This document shows positions 55,109 through 63,373 of a DNA stretch of 64,000 nt, piece by piece. The position numbers were made by a program, and so were the translations under genes. Where the stretch lies: assembly GCF_024972755.1 (NCBI RefSeq), contig NZ_CP087724.1, forward strand, positions 2,666,001-2,730,000, given 5' to 3'. The DNA comes from Halanaeroarchaeum sp. HSR-CO (lineage in GTDB: Archaea; Halobacteriota; Halobacteria; Halobacteriales; Halobacteriaceae). A model generated the notes under the pieces. The model ran no database searches. It was not told where the DNA came from and saw nothing but the letters and a program-made list of their open reading frames with translations. How positions within the stretch are numbered: the first letter of the stretch is position 1; each line of letters begins with the position of its first letter.

Positions 55109-55116
55109 TTAATATA
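55109..55116 (+). promoter_or_regulatory. TATA element of the argG leader transcript
   Basis: TTAATATA lies about 27-34 nt upstream of the ATG at 55143 and more than 200 nt upstream of argG. It would start a transcript at about 55138-55142, giving argG an unusually long leader of nearly 190 nt. Confidence 0.55.
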
Positions 55117-55142
55117 CTGCCCCCAGTAACGACCCAATACCG

Positions 55143-55235
55143 ATGCACGCTCCGGCCAGCGCCGTGGGTTCGCCCGCCGCTAGCCAGGAGTCCGTCTCCA
55201 TTCTCGCGGTCCGACGACGACCGGGGTCCTTCTAG
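55143..55235 (+). CDS. Candidate arginine leader peptide (30 codons)
   Basis: A 30-codon frame that would begin almost exactly at the transcription start predicted from the TATA box. Near its end are three consecutive CGA arginine codons (55212-55220) in ILAVRRRPGSF. The TAG stop sits inside a perfect hairpin (55223-55240), and argG, an arginine synthesis gene, starts 94 nt further on. This is the layout of an amino-acid leader peptide in bacterial attenuation. Such control is not established in haloarchaea, and a chance frame is possible. Confidence 0.45.
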   Translation: MHAPASAVGSPAASQESVSILAVRRRPGSF

Positions 55236-55240
55236 ACCCC
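55223..55240 (+). promoter_or_regulatory. Hairpin overlapping the leader-peptide stop codon
   Basis: GGGGTC, a 6-nt loop CTTCTA and GACCCC form a perfect 6-bp stem starting 3 nt after the third arginine codon. The loop and the second arm contain the TAG stop. No T-run follows. The CGACGA of the arginine codons can alternatively pair with TCGTCG at 55265-55270 or 55282-55287, which lie closer to argG. Confidence 0.45.
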
Positions 55241-55328
55241 CTACCATTCCTCCATCGACCGGACTCGTCGCTCGTTGCAACTCGTCGCGGCACCGTCTCT
55301 CGATTACACCCCCACCAACCACACCACA

Positions 55329-56573
55329 ATGTCACAGGAAACCGTCGCACTCGCCTTCTCGGGCGGGCTCGACACCACGGTCAGCGTACCGCTGCTCAAA
55401 GAAGAATACGGCTACGACGACGTTATCGGCGTCACCGTCGACGTCGGCCAACCCCAGGCCGAGTTCGACGAGGCGACCGAGACCGCCGAGGCACTCGACC
55501 TCGAACACTACGTCGTCGACGCCACCGAGGAGTTCGCCGACGTCTGCTTCGACGCGGTCCAGGCGAACGCCACCTACCAGGGCTACCCACTCGGTACCGC
55601 CCTCGCACGCCCGGTCATCGCCCAGAAGATCCTGGACGTCGCCGAGGAACACGGCGCGACCGCCGTCGCCCACGGCGCCACCGGGAAGGGCAACGACCAG
55701 CTCCGCTTCGAGGCGGTCTGGCGCCAGTCCGACCTCGACGTCATCGCCCCCATCCGCGAACTCGGCCTCACGCGCGAGTGGGAGATAGAGTACGCCGAGG
55801 AGAAGGGCCTGCCAGTCGACGCCGGCAACGACGGCGAGTGGTCCATCGACTCGAACCTCTGGAGTCGCTCCGTCGAGGGCGGCGACCTCGAGGATCCGGC
55901 ACACGTCCCGACCGAAGACATCTACGACTGGACCGTCGCGCCCACGGCCGAGACGGAGACAGTCGAGATAACCTTCGAGGCCGGCGTGCCGGTCGCCGTC
56001 GACGGCGACGAGATGGCCCCAGTATCCCTCATCGAGTACCTCAACGACCTCGCCGGCCAGTACGGCGTCGGTCGCACGGACCTCATGGAAGACCGCATGC
56101 TCGGGCTGAAGGTGCGCGAGAACTACGAGCACCCGGCGGCCACCACGCTCCTCGCCGCCCACGAAGCCCTCGAAGGGCTGGTATTGACCAAAGACGAGCG
56201 CCAGTTCAAGAACTCCGTCGACCAGGAGTGGGCCGAGAAGGCCTACGAGGGGCTGCTCTCCGTCCCGCTCGTGAGCGCCCTCGACGGCTTCATCGCCGAG
56301 ACCCAGACCGCCGTAACCGGCACGGTGACCGTGAAGTTCGAGGGCGGCCAGGCTCGCCCCGTCGCCCGCGAGAGCGACTACTCGGTCTACTCCGAATCGG
56401 CCGCTTCCTTCGACACCGCGGGCGTCCTGGGCGACATCACGCAGGACGACGCAACCGGCGTCGCGAAATACCACGGCTTCCAGGGCCGCCTCGCCAACGC
56501 CGCGAAATCGGAGACCGAGACCACGAAGCCAACCCACGAACTGACCGCCGACGGCGGCGCTGACGAGGAATAA
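55329..56573 (+). CDS. argG: Argininosuccinate synthase
   Basis: A 414-residue ATP-dependent enzyme that joins citrulline and aspartate. The PP-loop LAFSGGLDTTVSVPLL is at the N-terminus. GATGKGNDQLRFE, the SIDSNLWSRSVEGG block and VGRTDLMEDRMLGLKVRENYE follow the family. The acidic C-terminal tail (TADGGADEE) is a halophilic feature. argH follows after 3 nt. A leader of nearly 190 nt lies upstream with a possible leader peptide. Confidence 0.97.
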   Translation: MSQETVALAFSGGLDTTVSVPLLKEEYGYDDVIGVTVDVGQPQAEFDEATETAEALDLEHYVVDATEEFADVCFDAVQANATYQGYPLGTALARPVIAQKILDVAEEHGATAVAHGATGKGNDQLRFEAVWRQSDLDVIAPIRELGLTREWEIEYAEEKGLPVDAGNDGEWSIDSNLWSRSVEGGDLEDPAHVPTEDIYDWTVAPTAETETVEITFEAGVPVAVDGDEMAPVSLIEYLNDLAGQYGVGRTDLMEDRMLGLKVRENYEHPAATTLLAAHEALEGLVLTKDERQFKNSVDQEWAEKAYEGLLSVPLVSALDGFIAETQTAVTGTVTVKFEGGQARPVARESDYSVYSESAASFDTAGVLGDITQDDATGVAKYHGFQGRLANAAKSETETTKPTHELTADGGADEE

Positions 56574-56576
56574 CGG

Positions 56577-58052
56577 ATGCACGAGGGCGACGACGGACCC
56601 GACTCGGTGGTGCGCCGCGACCGCTTCAGCGGCGGCCCCGCGCGCGAGTTCCTCTCCTCGATGGACGCGGACGAGCGCATCTTCACCGCCGACCTCGCGG
56701 TCGACCGCGCCCACGTCGCCATGCTCGCCGAACAGGACGTCGTCGCGGACGACGAGGCTGGGGCAATCTTCGGCGCCCTCGACGACGTCGAGCAAGCGGG
56801 CTTCGAGGCGCTCCCCGAGGGCGAGGACGTCCACGAAGCCATCGAGACCGCCGTCATCGACGCGGTCGGTGGAGTCGGCGGCAAGATGCACACCGCGCGT
56901 TCGCGCAACGACGAGGTCGCGACGTGCATCCGGTATCGCCTCCGCGACGACCTGCTCGAGGCCATCGCAGTCACAGTCGGATTCCGCGAGCAACTGACCG
57001 AGGTAGCGACCGCGCATACCGACACCGTGATGCCGGGCTACACGCACCTCCAGCCCGCACAGCCAACGACGGTCGCCCACTGGCTCTCGTCGTACGCGCA
57101 GGCGGCCGAGCGCGACACTGCCCGCCTGCTGGACGCCTACGATCGGACCAACCAGTCGCCACTCGGGGCGGCGGCCTTCGCGGGGACGCCGTTCGACGTC
57201 GACCGCGAGCGCACGGCCGATCTGCTGGGCTTCGAGGGCCTCGTGGAGAACTCGATGGACGCGGTCTCGGCCCGCGATTTCCTCGTGGAGTCTGTCGCCG
57301 CGCTGGCCGGCCTGTCGACCACGCTCTCCGGCCTGGCAGAAGATCTGATCGTCCTCGCGAACAAGGGACTCGTCGAACTGGACGACGACTACGCCTCGAC
57401 GTCCTCGATCATGCCCCAGAAGAAGAACCCGGATACGCTCGAACTCGTTCGGTCGACCGCGGGCGACGCGAGCGCGGCGCTCGACGGCTTACTGACCACG
57501 CTGAAGGGGCTCCCCCGCTCGTACAACCGCGATCTGCAGAACGCGACCGGCTACGCCTGGAACGCCGTCGACGCCGTGACCGCGGCGACCGAGGTGGCGG
57601 GTGGGGCGGTCGGCACGGCCACGTGGCCCGAAGAGCCGCTCGAAACCGCCGCCGGCGAGGGCTTCTCGACGGCGACCGGCGTCGCCGACCTGCTGGCGAT
57701 GGGTGGCCTGCCGTTCAGGACGGCCCACGAGATCGTCGCGCACGCCGCCGAGGCCGGCGCGGCACGCGACGACGAACCGGGCCTCGCCGACGTCGAGGCC
57801 GCCACCCGCGAGGTCACCGGCTCGGCCCTCGCCGAGTTCGCCGCTGCCGAGGCCGTCGAATCGGCGCTCGACCCGACAGAGAGCGTGTCGTCTCGCGATT
57901 CGCGGGGTGGCCCCGCCCCGGGTGCGGCCGACGAGACCCTCGACGACCTGACGTCGGCCGTCGCGGCCCATCGCGACGCGGTCCAGACGCGCCAGACGAA
58001 CCTCGACGACGCGGCGAAACGGCTCCAGGAGGTCGTGGCGAGCCATGAGTGA
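56577..58052 (+). CDS. argH: Argininosuccinate lyase
   Basis: A 491-residue lyase that splits argininosuccinate into arginine and fumarate, the last step of the pathway. It has MHTARSRNDEVAT, PGYTHLQPAQPTTVAHW and the signature SSIMPQKKNPDTLE. The C-terminal domain carries a Ser/Arg/Gly-rich segment (about 438-452, RDSRGGPAPGA) as in other haloarchaeal ArgH. It lies 3 nt after argG. The final bases overlap a tiny frame beginning GTG at 58049. Confidence 0.97.
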   Translation: MHEGDDGPDSVVRRDRFSGGPAREFLSSMDADERIFTADLAVDRAHVAMLAEQDVVADDEAGAIFGALDDVEQAGFEALPEGEDVHEAIETAVIDAVGGVGGKMHTARSRNDEVATCIRYRLRDDLLEAIAVTVGFREQLTEVATAHTDTVMPGYTHLQPAQPTTVAHWLSSYAQAAERDTARLLDAYDRTNQSPLGAAAFAGTPFDVDRERTADLLGFEGLVENSMDAVSARDFLVESVAALAGLSTTLSGLAEDLIVLANKGLVELDDDYASTSSIMPQKKNPDTLELVRSTAGDASAALDGLLTTLKGLPRSYNRDLQNATGYAWNAVDAVTAATEVAGGAVGTATWPEEPLETAAGEGFSTATGVADLLAMGGLPFRTAHEIVAHAAEAGAARDDEPGLADVEAATREVTGSALAEFAAAEAVESALDPTESVSSRDSRGGPAPGAADETLDDLTSAVAAHRDAVQTRQTNLDDAAKRLQEVVASHE

Positions 58053-58296: not shown

Positions 58297-58461
58297 ATGA
58301 CAACGTGTCCCGAGTGTGGGGCCGACGTGGCCCTGCACGACGACCTGGAAGTCGGAGAGATCGTCGACTGTGCGACCTGCGGTACCGAACTGGAGGTCAC
58401 CGACGTGAGCCCGCCGGTCCTCGAGCGAGCCCCGGAGCTCGACGAGGACTGGGGGGAGTGA
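58297..58461 (+). CDS. lysW: Amino-group carrier protein LysW/ArgW
   Basis: A 54-residue carrier protein to whose C-terminal glutamate the substrate amino group is attached during arginine (and possibly lysine) synthesis. A zinc finger is formed by Cys4, Cys7, Cys25 and Cys28 (CPEC and CATC). The C-terminus ends in the required EDWGE motif. The gene is short and is easily overlooked, but it is in the right place, directly before lysX, with a 4-nt overlap. Confidence 0.95.
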   Translation: MTTCPECGADVALHDDLEVGEIVDCATCGTELEVTDVSPPVLERAPELDEDWGE

Positions 58462-59345
58462 CCGTGGACGTCGGCCTCCTCTACTCCCGGATCCGCCAGG
58501 ACGAAAAGCTCCTCCTCAACGAGCTACGCGAGCGCGGCCACGAGGTGCACAAGGTGGACGTCCGCAAACAGCAGTTCGGCCTGCAGGAGGCGAGCGTCGA
58601 CTTCGACGCGATGGACGTCGTCCTGGACCGCACCCTCGCGACCAGCCGCTCGCTGTACACCACGAGCTTCCTGGACGCCTACGACGTCCCCGTGGTGAAC
58701 GACGCGGAGACGGCCCGCGTCTGTGCCGACAAGGTCCAGACCACGCTCGCGCTCGCGAACGCAGACGTTTCCACCCCCGAGACCACGGTCGCCTACACCG
58801 TCGACAGTGCGATGGAAGCCATCGAGTCCTTCGGCTACCCCGTCGTGCTCAAGCCCGTCGTCGGCTCGTGGGGTCGCCTGATGGCCCGCATCGAGGACGA
58901 ACACGCCGCCGAGGCCATCCTCGAGCACAAGGCGACACTCGGCCACTACGAGCACAAGGTGTTCTACGTCCAGGAGTTCGTGGACAAGCCGGGCCGGGAT
59001 TTCCGCGTACTCGCCCTCGACGGCCAGCCAATCGCGGGGATGGTACGCTCCTCGGACCACTGGCTCACGAACGCCGCCAAGGGGGCCGAGACCGCCGAAC
59101 TCGAGATCACCCCGGAGATTGCAGACCTCGTCTCGCAGGCGAGCGCGGCCGTCGGCGGCGGCATGCTCGGCGTCGACATCATGGAGACCGACGACGGCTA
59201 CACCGTCCACGAGGTCAACCACACCGTCGAGTTCAAGGCGCTGACCGACGCCGTCTCCGTCGACGTTCCCGCAACGGTCGTCGACTGGCTCGAGGGGGAG
59301 GCCGCCCAGGCGGCCGACCCACACGCCGGCGAGGTGACCGCCTGA
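58458..59345 (+). CDS. argX: LysW-glutamate ligase (ArgX/LysX)
   Basis: A 295-residue ATP-grasp enzyme that attaches glutamate (or alpha-aminoadipate) to the C-terminus of LysW. The start is GTG at 58458, overlapping the lysW stop; a second GTG at 58464 is possible. The ATP-grasp parts are PVVLKPVVGSWGRLMARI, FYVQEFVDKPGRDFRVLALDG and the metal site VDIMETDDGYTVHEVNHTVEF. Because no lysine-specific genes are in the window and argG/argH are next door, the arginine role is more likely. Confidence 0.93.
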   Translation: MTVDVGLLYSRIRQDEKLLLNELRERGHEVHKVDVRKQQFGLQEASVDFDAMDVVLDRTLATSRSLYTTSFLDAYDVPVVNDAETARVCADKVQTTLALANADVSTPETTVAYTVDSAMEAIESFGYPVVLKPVVGSWGRLMARIEDEHAAEAILEHKATLGHYEHKVFYVQEFVDKPGRDFRVLALDGQPIAGMVRSSDHWLTNAAKGAETAELEITPEIADLVSQASAAVGGGMLGVDIMETDDGYTVHEVNHTVEFKALTDAVSVDVPATVVDWLEGEAAQAADPHAGEVTA

Positions 59346-60421
59346 TGGCGACGGGCGAGACCACCACGTCCAACGCGGACACCGCCGAGACGGTCACTGC
59401 CTCGGTCGTCGGTGGGAGTGGATTCACCGGGGGCGAGTTGCTCCGTCTGCTGGCCGGGCACCCGCAGTTCGCGGTGGCCCAGGCGACCAGTCGCGAGTAC
59501 GCAAATCGCACCGTCGGTAGCGTCCACCCGAACCTCCGCGGTCTCGACGTCCGCTTTTCCCACCCCGACGATCTGGAGCGCGTCGACGTGCTGTTCGCGG
59601 CGACACCCCACGGCGTCTCGATGGAACAGATCGACGAGTTCCGTGCCCTCGCCGACACCGTCGTCGATCTGAGCGCGGATTTCCGCCTCGACACGGCCGG
59701 GCAGTACGACGACTGGTACGACGGCCACGCGGCACCAGAACACCTCGAGGACGCGGTTTACGCGCTCCCCGAGCGCCACCGCGAGGAGTTGCCGGACGCC
59801 GAACTCATCGCGAGTGGCGGCTGTAACGCCACTGCGACCATCCTCGGACTCGGTCCACTGGCCGACGCGGGCCTGCTCGCCGACGCTGACGTGGTCGTCG
59901 ACGTCAAGGTCGGCTCCTCGGAGGGCGGGGCCGGTGGCGGCGCAGCGGCCTCCCACCCGGAGCGGTCAGGGGTCGTCCGCCCGTACGCCCCGACCGGCCA
60001 CCGCCACGAGGCAGAGATCGAACAGGAACTCGACCTGTCGGTCTCCTTCACCGCCCACGCCGTGGACATGGTGCGGGGCGCCGCAGCGACGAGTCACGTC
60101 CTCCTCGACGAGGTTCCATCGAAAGCGGAGCTCTGGGGCGCGTTCCGCGAAGCCTACGAGGACGAACCGTTCGTCCGTCTCGTCGCGGGCGGTGGTGGCG
60201 TCTATCGCTACCCCGAACCCAAGGCCGTCGCGGGGACGAACTACGCCGAGGTCGGCTTCGAGGTCGACGAGACCAACGGTCGGCTCGTCGTCTTCAGTGC
60301 CATCGACAACATGATGAAGGGCTCTGCCGGCCAGGCGGTCCACGCGGCCAACGTCGCGCTCGGCTTCGAAGAGACCGCCGGCCTCGACTTTCAGGGCCTC
60401 CACCCGGTGGGTGCGCCATGA
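59345..60421 (+). CDS. argC: LysW-gamma-glutamyl phosphate reductase (ArgC/LysY)
   Basis: A 358-residue NADPH-dependent reductase that converts the carrier-bound glutamyl phosphate to the semialdehyde. It has the nucleotide-binding SVVGGSGFTGGELLRLL, the catalytic Cys in ASGGCNATATILGL and the PTGHRHEAEIEQEL substrate block with its His. The start ATG is at 59345, overlapping the lysX stop by one base. An N-terminal extension of about 18 polar residues precedes the Rossmann fold. Confidence 0.95.
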   Translation: MATGETTTSNADTAETVTASVVGGSGFTGGELLRLLAGHPQFAVAQATSREYANRTVGSVHPNLRGLDVRFSHPDDLERVDVLFAATPHGVSMEQIDEFRALADTVVDLSADFRLDTAGQYDDWYDGHAAPEHLEDAVYALPERHREELPDAELIASGGCNATATILGLGPLADAGLLADADVVVDVKVGSSEGGAGGGAAASHPERSGVVRPYAPTGHRHEAEIEQELDLSVSFTAHAVDMVRGAAATSHVLLDEVPSKAELWGAFREAYEDEPFVRLVAGGGGVYRYPEPKAVAGTNYAEVGFEVDETNGRLVVFSAIDNMMKGSAGQAVHAANVALGFEETAGLDFQGLHPVGAP

Positions 60422-61233
60422 TCGTCGTGAAGATCGGGGGTGCCCGGGCGGTGGATCCCCAGGGCGCCATCGACGACGTCGCCACCCTGACCGAGGCCGG
60501 TGAGGACGTGATCGTGGTCCACGGCGGGTCGACCGCCGTCGACGACGCCCTGGAGGCCATGGGAACCGATCCGGAGTACGTCGAGACGCCCGGGGGCGTC
60601 GTCGGACGGTTCACCGACGCGGAGACGATGGACGTCTTCTCGATGGCGATGGGCAGGGTCAACACCGACCTCGTCACCGACCTCCAGAACGCCAACGTCG
60701 CGGCCGTCGGGTGTAACGGCGTCGACGGCGGCCTCCTCACCGGCACGCGCAAATCGGCCGTCAAGGTCCGCGAGAACGGGAAGACGAAGATCAAGCGGGG
60801 CGATCACTCGGGGACCATCACCGACGTGAACGACCACCTGCTCGAGACGCTGCTCGATGCGGGCTACACCCCCGTGGTGAGCGTCCCGATGCTCGCCGAG
60901 GACGGGGTCGCGGTCAACACCGACGCGGACCGCGCCGCTGCCGCCGTCGCCGCCGCGATGGACGCCTCGCTCGTGGTCCTGACCGACGTGGCCGGCGTCT
61001 ACGAGGACCCCGCGGACCCGTCGACGCGCATCGAGGCGGTCGACTCCCCGGCCGCCCTCGACGCCACGAAGGCGGCCGCGGAGGGGTTCATGACGAAGAA
61101 GGTCCTCGCGGCGACCGAGGCGCTCTCGGGCGGTGCGAGCGAAGTGGTTGTCGCCGACGCCACGACGGCGACACCGATCGTCTCGGCGCTCGACGGTGAC
61201 GGCACCCGATTCACCCCGGACGCGATAGCATGA
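60418..61233 (+). CDS. argB: LysW-glutamate kinase (ArgB/LysZ)
   Basis: A 271-residue amino-acid kinase that phosphorylates the gamma-carboxyl of LysW-bound glutamate. It opens IVVKIGGARAVD, with VIVVHGGSTAVDDAL and VNTDADRAAAAVAAAM later, and a final regulator-like part (GGASEVVVADA). The ATG at 60418 overlaps the argC stop by 4 nt. The archaeal LysZ form lacks an arginine feedback arm at the N-terminus, as here. Confidence 0.95.
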   Translation: MIVVKIGGARAVDPQGAIDDVATLTEAGEDVIVVHGGSTAVDDALEAMGTDPEYVETPGGVVGRFTDAETMDVFSMAMGRVNTDLVTDLQNANVAAVGCNGVDGGLLTGTRKSAVKVRENGKTKIKRGDHSGTITDVNDHLLETLLDAGYTPVVSVPMLAEDGVAVNTDADRAAAAVAAAMDASLVVLTDVAGVYEDPADPSTRIEAVDSPAALDATKAAAEGFMTKKVLAATEALSGGASEVVVADATTATPIVSALDGDGTRFTPDAIA

Positions 61234-62351
61234 ACGGCTTCGTCTTCTCCCAGAAACCCATCGAGATCGAATCGGGGTCCGGCCCGTACCTGACCAGCAC
61301 CGACGGGACCGAGTACCTCGACATGGGCGCGAGCTACGCGGTCGCGAGCGTCGGCCACAGCCATCCCGACGTCGTCGCGGCCGTCCAGCAGCAGGCCGAG
61401 GAGTTACTGTTCGTCCAGGGGTCGTACCCCGTGGCGGTGCGCCAGGCGCTCCGCGAGAAACTGGCCGCCATCGCGCCGGGCGACCTCGAGGACGTCTGGC
61501 TCGCGAACTCGGGCACCGAGGCGAACGAAGCCGCCCTCAAGTTCGCCCGCCACGCGACCGGCCGATCGAAGATCGTCGCCGCCAACCGGGCGTTCCACGG
61601 ACGGACCATGGGATCGCTGGCCGCCACGTGGAAGGGGAAGTACAAACAGGGCTTCGAACCCCTCGCCGGCGATTTCGTCCACGTCCCCTACGACGACCCC
61701 GAGGCGCTGGCAGCGGCAGTCGACGAGGAGACGGCGGCCGTCATCCTCGAACCCATCCAGGGCGAGGGCGGGATCCGCCCGGCCTCGACCGAGTACCTGC
61801 AGACCGCCCGCGAAGTGACCGCGGAGACGGGCGCAGCGCTGGTCTTCGACGAGATCCAGACGGGACTCGGCCGCACGGGGACGATGTGGGCCCACGAGAC
61901 GGCCGGCGTCGTCCCCGATGCGCTCACCGTCGCCAAGGGGCTCGGAAGCGGTCTGCCCGTCAGCGCCACCGTCGTCGCCGACTGGATCGCCGACGACCCC
62001 GGCAATCACGGGTCGACGTTCAGCGGGAGTCCAATCGTCGCCGCCGCCGCTGGGGCGACACTCGACGTCATCGAGGCCGAATCGCTCGTCGAAAACGCCG
62101 CCTCGGTCGGTGGCTACCTGCAGTCGAGACTGGCGGCCCTCGACGAACCCCGCGACGTCCGGGGCGAGGGGCTGCTCGTCGGTATCGAGGTGAAGCGGGG
62201 GGCGAACCGGCACCTCAAACACCTCGCGCTGGACCACCAGATCCTGGCGCTGCCCGCCGGCCGGACGGTCGTCCGCCTCCTCCCACCACTCGTGGTGGAC
62301 GAGTCACACGCCGACGAGACGGTCGATGCGCTGGCCGAGGTGCTGGCCTGA
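61230..62351 (+). CDS. argD: LysW-semialdehyde aminotransferase (ArgD/LysJ)
   Basis: A 373-residue PLP aminotransferase of the acetylornithine class. It contains the SGTEANEAALKFAR block, the VFDEIQTGLGRTGTMWA motif with the cofactor Asp, and the PLP lysine in LTVAKGLGSGLPVSA. It overlaps argB by 4 nt and argE by one base. It makes the carrier-bound ornithine (or lysine) form. Confidence 0.95.
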   Translation: MNGFVFSQKPIEIESGSGPYLTSTDGTEYLDMGASYAVASVGHSHPDVVAAVQQQAEELLFVQGSYPVAVRQALREKLAAIAPGDLEDVWLANSGTEANEAALKFARHATGRSKIVAANRAFHGRTMGSLAATWKGKYKQGFEPLAGDFVHVPYDDPEALAAAVDEETAAVILEPIQGEGGIRPASTEYLQTAREVTAETGAALVFDEIQTGLGRTGTMWAHETAGVVPDALTVAKGLGSGLPVSATVVADWIADDPGNHGSTFSGSPIVAAAAGATLDVIEAESLVENAASVGGYLQSRLAALDEPRDVRGEGLLVGIEVKRGANRHLKHLALDHQILALPAGRTVVRLLPPLVVDESHADETVDALAEVLA

Positions 62352-63373
62352 TGGACGACGCGCGGACACTCCTCACGGACCTCGTCTCGACCCCCTCTGT
62401 TTCGGGTGGAGAGAGCGAAGCAGCAAGAATCCTCGTCGAGGCCTTCGAACGCGCTGGTCGGGAGGTCTGGATTGACGAGGTCGGGAACGTCCGCGCGCCA
62501 GCCGACGATAGCGTCCTGCTAACGTCCCATATCGACACCGTTCCCGGCGAAGTGCCCGTGCGCGAGGAGGACGGCTTTCTCTGGGGACGCGGGTCGGTCG
62601 ACGCGACCGGGCCGCTGGCCGCCATGGCCGTCGCCGCAGTCGAAACCGGGGTGAGCTTCGTCGGGGTCGTCGAGGAAGAGACCACCTCGCGGGGGGCGCG
62701 CCACCTCGTCGAGACCCGGGACGCCCCCGACGCCGTCGTCAACGGCGAGCCGAGTGGGTGGGCCGGCATCGTCCTCGGCTATCGCGGGTATCACGCCGGC
62801 AGCTATCGCGTGGAGGTGCCATCCGCCCATACCGCGGTCGACGACCAGAACGCCATCGAGCGCGCGATGGACTGGTGGGACCGGGTCGAGGCGGCCGTCG
62901 GCGACGAAACGGCCCGGGACGCAACGGCGTTCGAGCGCGCGACCGCGAAACCCGTCGGCATCGAGGGCGGCGTGACCGAAGACGGTCTCGCGACCGAAGC
63001 GCTGGTGGACGCCCAGTTTCGGCTGCCCCCGGGAACGACCGGAACGGACGTTGAATCGACGGTCGACGCCGTGACGGAATCCGGTGCCGTCGCGTGGGAC
63101 GAACCCATCCCACCGGTCATGCGCAGCCCGAGGAACGCGGTCGCACGGGCACTCAGGGCGGGCATCCGGGCGGCAGACGGCGAACCGACCCACCTCCGCA
63201 AGACCGGGACGAGCGACATGAACCTCTTCGCCGAGGCCTGGGACGTCCCGATGGCCACCTATGGACCGGGCGACTCCTCGCTCGATCACGCGCCGGACGA
63301 GCGCCTCGAACTGGCCGAATTCGACCGGTCGGTCGCGGTGTTGACCCACGCCACCGCGGCGCTGGCCGAGTAG
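62351..63373 (+). CDS. argE: LysW-ornithine hydrolase (ArgE/LysK)
   Basis: A 340-residue M20-family metallopeptidase that frees ornithine (or lysine) from LysW. Zinc-ligand blocks are LLTSHIDTVPGE, GRGSVDATGPLAAM and the catalytic VVEEETTSRGARHLVE, followed by VVNGEPSGW and the late TSDMNLFAEAWDVP. The ATG at 62351 overlaps the argD stop by one base. It is the last gene of the arginine unit; a 74-nt gap with its own signals leads to threonine synthase. Confidence 0.94.
   Translation: MDDARTLLTDLVSTPSVSGGESEAARILVEAFERAGREVWIDEVGNVRAPADDSVLLTSHIDTVPGEVPVREEDGFLWGRGSVDATGPLAAMAVAAVETGVSFVGVVEEETTSRGARHLVETRDAPDAVVNGEPSGWAGIVLGYRGYHAGSYRVEVPSAHTAVDDQNAIERAMDWWDRVEAAVGDETARDATAFERATAKPVGIEGGVTEDGLATEALVDAQFRLPPGTTGTDVESTVDAVTESGAVAWDEPIPPVMRSPRNAVARALRAGIRAADGEPTHLRKTGTSDMNLFAEAWDVPMATYGPGDSSLDHAPDERLELAEFDRSVAVLTHATAALAE

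Follow-up and report, generated by a model that had tools for sequence, protein, structure and literature searches.

The arginine operon of Halanaeroarchaeum sp. HSR-CO is preceded by a leader that is best explained, with a probability of about three in four, as a ribosome-mediated attenuator sensing charged arginyl-tRNA; this reading is built on sequence comparison. It appears likely that leader-peptide attenuators form a widespread class in haloarchaea, present at argG and ilvB and characterized by a leaderless upstream open reading frame (uORF), rare sensor codons and a stop codon located in a hairpin, with a Phe leader of different layout at pheS. If so, they would be the first example of charged-tRNA-sensing attenuation in Archaea; they would be free of both antiterminator and U-tract, and would probably couple translation to factor-dependent termination.

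The leader and the operon genes of the window, which is the whole 64,000-nucleotide stretch of DNA analyzed, are listed in Table 1. The genes follow in the order argG-argH-argW-argX-argC-argB-argD-argE; in Haloferax volcanii, the arginine gene cluster runs from argG (HVO_0049) to argF (HVO_0041) (PMC8305020). As the original prediction had described, the TATA element, the 30-codon frame at the predicted 5′ end, the CGA triplet near the end of the frame and the stop codon within one perfect 6-bp hairpin can all be read directly from the DNA. It had also placed the transcript start about 190 nt in front of argG, in agreement with an argG ATG fixed at 55329 and a predicted start at about 55140; the uORF ATG follows the TATA box by about 31 nt. 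A start close to the argG ATG had been named as an observation that would refute the prediction, and as judged from the sequence, the window contains no TATA element there. Between 54800 and 55600, Rfam gave no match at or above the gathering score, the sub-threshold matches being due to chance.

Table 1. Coordinates of the argG leader and of the downstream arginine operon in the window
Feature	Position	Strand	Basis
TATA element of the leader promoter, TTAATATA	55109..55116	+	read directly
Leaderless uORF, 30 codons and stop TAG, arginine leader peptide MHAPASAVGSPAASQESVSILAVRRRPGSF	55143..55235	+	read directly
Hairpin H0, within the uORF, 5′ of the Arg codons	55149..55191	+	folding; own versus swapped halves
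Sensor codons CGA CGA CGA (Arg24-26)	55212..55220	+	codon counts
Hairpin H1, GGGGTC-CTTCTA-GACCCC, perfect 6 bp, uORF stop in loop and 3′ arm	55223..55240	+	compensatory changes
uORF stop TAG inside H1	55233..55235	+	read directly
G-poor, pyrimidine-rich stretch 3′ of H1, candidate termination or factor-loading region (putative role)	55241..55265	+	base counts
TCGTCG sites, two	55265-55270 and 55282-55287	+	read directly
argG, argininosuccinate synthase, first gene of the controlled operon	55329..56573	+	Pfam PF00764 and PF20979
argH, argininosuccinate lyase	56577..58052	+	Pfam PF00206 and PF14698
argW, LysW-like amino-group carrier, 54 aa, Zn-ribbon-like ORF MTTCPECGADV...	58297..58461	+	identity inferred from cluster order (PMC8305020)
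argX, LysX-type ATP-grasp ligase, start codon approximate	58449..59345	+	Pfam PF22626 and PF08443
argC, argB, argD, argE, remaining arginine operon in the window	59345..63373	+	Pfam semialdehyde dehydrogenase, amino acid kinase, class III aminotransferase, M20 peptidase

To follow the leader among relatives, we compared the 330 nt upstream of argG in public haloarchaeal genomes, which gave 88 non-identical loci. A match in the first test was an ATG frame of 15–60 codons with at least three Arg in five codons near its end, ending 60–200 nt before argG. The test was passed by 81 of the 88 loci, compared to 5/88 for the reverse complement and, averaged over dinucleotide shuffles, 3.25/88 (maximum 7); among other upstream stretches, 11/399 passed. 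With the test for a stop codon inside a hairpin, the leader was found in 84 of the 88. The remaining four loci (L019, L033, L035 and L036) are all from Natrialbaceae; they keep the Arg run and the hairpin, the stop codon in H1 is lost and the frame continues for about 20 codons beyond H1. The leader is also present in each of the 27 haloarchaeal loci of a hold-out set, where the strict test detects 23 and the other 4 were recognized by eye; in one hold-out locus (L086) the strict match is spurious and the true leader is nonetheless present. Conservation of the frame and its Arg run in relatives, on which the original prediction depended, was thus found in 84/88 loci and in the hold-outs. Twenty argG loci from outside the haloarchaea (other groups of the phylum and a basal lineage of the order) gave no convincing leader, and the single match among them was rejected as an AT-rich chance match. 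Because the hold-out loci are positive and these 20 loci are not convincingly so, the element is, by sequence, a feature of the class Halobacteria.

The leaders vary in length from 23 to 51 codons, and in 83 of the 84 the uORF begins at the first ATG past the TATA element. The best TATA-like 8-mer of these loci is located 25–35 nt, mostly 31–32 nt, before the uORF ATG; owing to this tight distance, the start codon is predicted to sit at the 5′ end of the transcript. There are no in-frame stops, whereas the other two frames contain stops in 16 and 10 loci, respectively; the frame entered the leader selection itself, though 84/88 passed. Before the tail, in the N-terminal part of the leader, pN/pS is 0.98; conservation of the peptide is highest in its C-terminal RRRPG. 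A frame that is kept around a neutral peptide argues for selection acting on the translation of the leader and not on its product.

Across the leaders, the final 12 codons include 383 Arg codons, of which 275 are CGA, 58 CGG, 31 CGT, 17 CGC and 2 AGG. The share of CGA is 72% in this tail versus 1.6% (19/1214 Arg codons) in argG of the same genomes; in the long ORFs of the HSR-CO genome it is 14%. The genome stretches read contain one tRNA-Arg(UCG) gene. The presence of rare codons in the run suggests sensing via a particular isoacceptor.

Besides the leader promoter, a second TATA element is located about 30 nt before argG in 45 of the 88 loci, including L024, L044, L047, L060, L071 and other Haloferacaceae and Natrialbaceae, so leader-free transcription of argG would be possible in those clades. 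The sequence upstream of this argG-proximal TATA element is conserved (TATAGGCATCT in Haloferacaceae), and element and sequence together suggest two promoters. The leader may thus control just one of the two in Natrialbaceae and Haloferacaceae. Halobacterium and Halorussus, like HSR-CO, are without the argG-proximal promoter.

MAFFT alignment followed by RNAalifold returned no pairs, since the hairpin is misaligned between clades. Instead, nearly all pairs of leader segments were tested for pairing with partners from their own species versus partners swapped between species. Among the tested segment pairs, only the arms of H0 and the arms of H1 gave clear species-specific pairing. The H0 halves pair with −28.0 kcal/mol in their own combination and −22.0 kcal/mol when swapped, and they are 6.2 kcal/mol better in the segment-pair test. 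For the H1 arms, the advantage of own over swapped partners is 2.8 kcal/mol in the segment-pair test, where the arms were preselected by pairing; the unbiased window test gave 15.6 for own versus 12.7 (maximum 13.4) for swapped partners. The position of H1 is conserved with compensatory changes. It starts right after the last Arg codons, so that its 5′ arm would be covered by any ribosome that pauses on them.

Mutually exclusive terminator and antiterminator structures of the classical trp type were not observed, as no conserved competing structure was present among the segment pairs tested. Pairing of the leader segments with the downstream segment is not conserved beyond −0.8 kcal/mol. The original prediction had also proposed a switch in which the Arg codons pair with the two TCGTCG sites. 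The letters are present, but comparison between species gives this pairing no support (mean z of −0.19 versus shuffles, −0.8 kcal/mol versus swapped partners). Of the predicted Arg attenuator, the conserved Arg leader peptide that begins at the predicted 5′ end and ends in a hairpin is thus supported, whereas the switch between hairpin and TCGTCG pairing is not.

None of 78 loci contains a run of at least five T within 30 nt after H1; therefore, H1 is not a bacterial intrinsic terminator. The 25 nt past H1 in these 78 loci are 9% G, 43% C and 27% T, with 70% pyrimidine. The distance from the uORF stop to argG varies widely across the loci, from 77 to 184 nt, and the argG start in the window has no Shine-Dalgarno-like sequence. 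Taken together, the comparisons indicate that conservation extends to the reading frame, its rare CGA codons, its stop codon and the two hairpins.

Like argG, ilvB is preceded by a leader of this layout. The ilvB leader of the HSR-CO genome, MQTTTVPTGSRLPSGAAVGIRAIIVGV, is located at about 2,355,640 of C1 (L155:1236-1319); its tail is IIVGV, with ATT ATT GTA as sensor codons, and its stop codon lies within a hairpin. All 30 haloarchaeal ilvB loci (L162–L191) carry the leader, 28 of them with a TATA element. In the leader tails, ATT accounts for 43 of 59 Ile codons versus 35/645 in ilvB itself, and GTA for 35 of 53 Val codons versus 13/1277. At both argG and ilvB, the sensor codons, as read from the sequence, match the product of the operon. 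Phe-run uORFs ending in GFGFFF or similar were observed before pheS in 22 of 30 haloarchaeal loci (L312–L341; L319 for the HSR-CO genome); they are followed by GGTGGA...GAAACC, a layout different from that of the argG and ilvB leaders, and the Phe-codon region pairs with the downstream sequence no better for own than for swapped partners. In H. volcanii, long 5′-UTRs with uORFs have been mapped by experiment; the entries of the published table include one uORF of 26 codons before pheS and one of 23 codons before the tryptophan tRNA ligase gene HVO_A0127 (PMC4983044, Table 2). The twin design at ilvB with its matching codons, together with the Phe-run leaders at pheS, strengthens the attenuator reading.

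We also scanned about 2.4 Mb, or about 87%, of the HSR-CO genome (C1:1-2,340,500 plus the window) for a leaderless uORF with its stop codon in a hairpin and a G-poor stretch; the same scan recovers 71/88 argG and 21/30 ilvB leaders. Within the window it matches argG alone, and it matches ilvB when that locus is scanned. In the 2.34 Mb of chromosome outside the window, the scan detected no leader of the argG architecture. Inspection of the sequences upstream of trpC, trpE and leuA in the HSR-CO genome showed no candidate leader of the argG/ilvB kind.

Based on these comparisons, it is very probable that the leader peptide senses charged tRNA. Transcription would begin about 26 nt past the TATA element, with the uORF ATG at or beside the 5′ end, and a ribosome would load immediately on this leaderless start. 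It would then unfold H0 and arrive at the rare CGA run directly before H1. With ample arginine, the ribosome would clear the run, terminate at the stop codon within H1 and depart; H1 and the G-poor pyrimidine stretch would be exposed, leading to an early stop of transcription, possibly via FttA/aCPSF1, or the message would otherwise be prevented from expressing argG. When arginine is scarce, the ribosome would wait on CGA and its front would cover the 5′ arm of H1, so that H1 would stay open and the operon would be on. Direct occlusion of H1 by the waiting ribosome is our working model, as the most economical one. Comparison between species supports the frame, the rare sensor codons, both hairpins, the stop codon in the hairpin and, at argG and ilvB, the match of codons to operon product; we infer that the ribosome stalls and occludes H1 and that the output is termination. 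Provided that charged tRNA is sensed, we somewhat favor premature transcription termination as the main output and regard translational control as doubtful. FttA is a candidate for this factor, since a role in policing the coupling of transcription to translation in archaea has been proposed for it (PMC11616081; PMC8116511). However, a preference of FttA for U-rich RNA has been reported (PMC11616081), and the stretch past H1 is C-rich; its involvement at the argG leader is a guess.

The main rival is that the leader and the operon are co-transcribed with no early termination and that translation of, or stalling on, the uORF alters how well ribosomes reach the argG start, by way of reinitiation, 30S passage or message stability. 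The absence of a U-tract past H1 fits such a scheme, and so does an argG start where initiation would be unusual anyway, as it has no Shine-Dalgarno-like sequence in the window and lies 77–184 nt past the uORF stop. However, H1 does not overlap the argG start, no pairing from the leader to the downstream sequence is conserved beyond the −0.8 kcal/mol mentioned above, and the spacer between uORF and argG is highly variable in length; as an account of the whole leader, we regard it as unlikely. Arrest of the nascent peptide by free arginine, which would lower expression in the manner of the fungal arginine attenuator peptide, is in line with RRRPG being more conserved than the remainder of the peptide. 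It is highly improbable, since the other parts of the peptide evolve neutrally, the strong preference for rare synonymous codons would be needless for arrest at the amino-acid level, and at ilvB the layout is retained although the residues differ.

The conserved unit might also be a binding site for a protein on DNA or RNA, or a riboswitch-like RNA, in which the reading frame is incidental. Both H0 and H1 covary, the CGA run is conserved as a nucleotide motif too, and the lack of an Rfam match at the gathering score leaves room for an undescribed RNA. Against this, the first ATG past the TATA element is the in-frame start in 83/84 leaders despite lengths of 23–51 codons, in-frame stops are absent, and the sensor codons switch to Ile/Val at ilvB while the layout is unchanged; we give this explanation very little weight. 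That the uORF gives rise to a functional small protein rich in arginine, produced from a separate short transcript, is scarcely credible: argG has its own TATA element in 45/88 loci, where the leader might form a unit by itself, and small proteins are common in haloarchaea (PMC4983044), but pN/pS is about 1 outside the tail and the lengths range from 23 to 51 residues. Compared to these alternatives, a ribosome-mediated attenuator that senses charged arginyl-tRNA remains the best explanation.

Leader-peptide attenuation of amino-acid operons is textbook bacterial biology. We found no description of it for archaea in the literature searched, which was thin on subscription journals, and older reports are possible. 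The H. volcanii table of 5′-UTR uORFs does not include argG or ilvB among its entries, all of which have low isoelectric points, and we found no proposal of attenuation in that survey (PMC4983044). If a conserved archaeal version exists, transcription-translation coupling would serve regulation in archaea, and haloarchaeal sensing of arginine and branched-chain amino acids would be explained. It would also provide a natural test bed, genetically tractable in Haloferax, for the proposed policing of coupling by FttA.

Like the enterobacterial trp, his, leu, ilv and pheST leaders, the haloarchaeal leaders consist of a short ORF with a run of end-product codons before the matching biosynthetic or synthetase operon. 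They also share with bacterial ribosome-mediated attenuators, of which the ilvB uORF of Corynebacterium is one (PMC10272879), the rare codons in the run, the hairpin after it and an otherwise unconstrained peptide. Different from the bacterial attenuators, the haloarchaeal leaders have a TATA promoter, a leaderless uORF and a stop codon inside the hairpin, and they have neither a conserved antiterminator nor a U-tract. The classical trp-type attenuator combines an antiterminator with an intrinsic terminator that carries a U-tract. In Escherichia coli pyrBI, the leader ORF likewise enters the hairpin region, and the position of the ribosome blocks the hairpin without any competing antiterminator; however, pyrBI senses UTP through the speed of RNA polymerase, whereas the haloarchaeal codon run points to charged tRNA. 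At tnaC, the ribosome stalled at the leader blocks access of Rho, and to our knowledge archaea have no Rho; a waiting ribosome that shields RNA from a termination factor may be the common logic. Different from the haloarchaeal leader, which precedes an arginine-making operon, tnaC is a tryptophan-induced nascent-peptide arrest at a catabolic operon. The fungal arginine attenuator peptide, encoded by the arg-2/CPA1 uORF, is likewise located before an arginine biosynthetic gene; its own sequence is essential and arginine causes the arrest, whereas in the haloarchaeal leader the peptide is neutral and the codon choice is conserved. Taken together, these comparisons suggest that the haloarchaeal leader works like a bacterial attenuator, minus the two classical features tested, the antiterminator and the U-tract.
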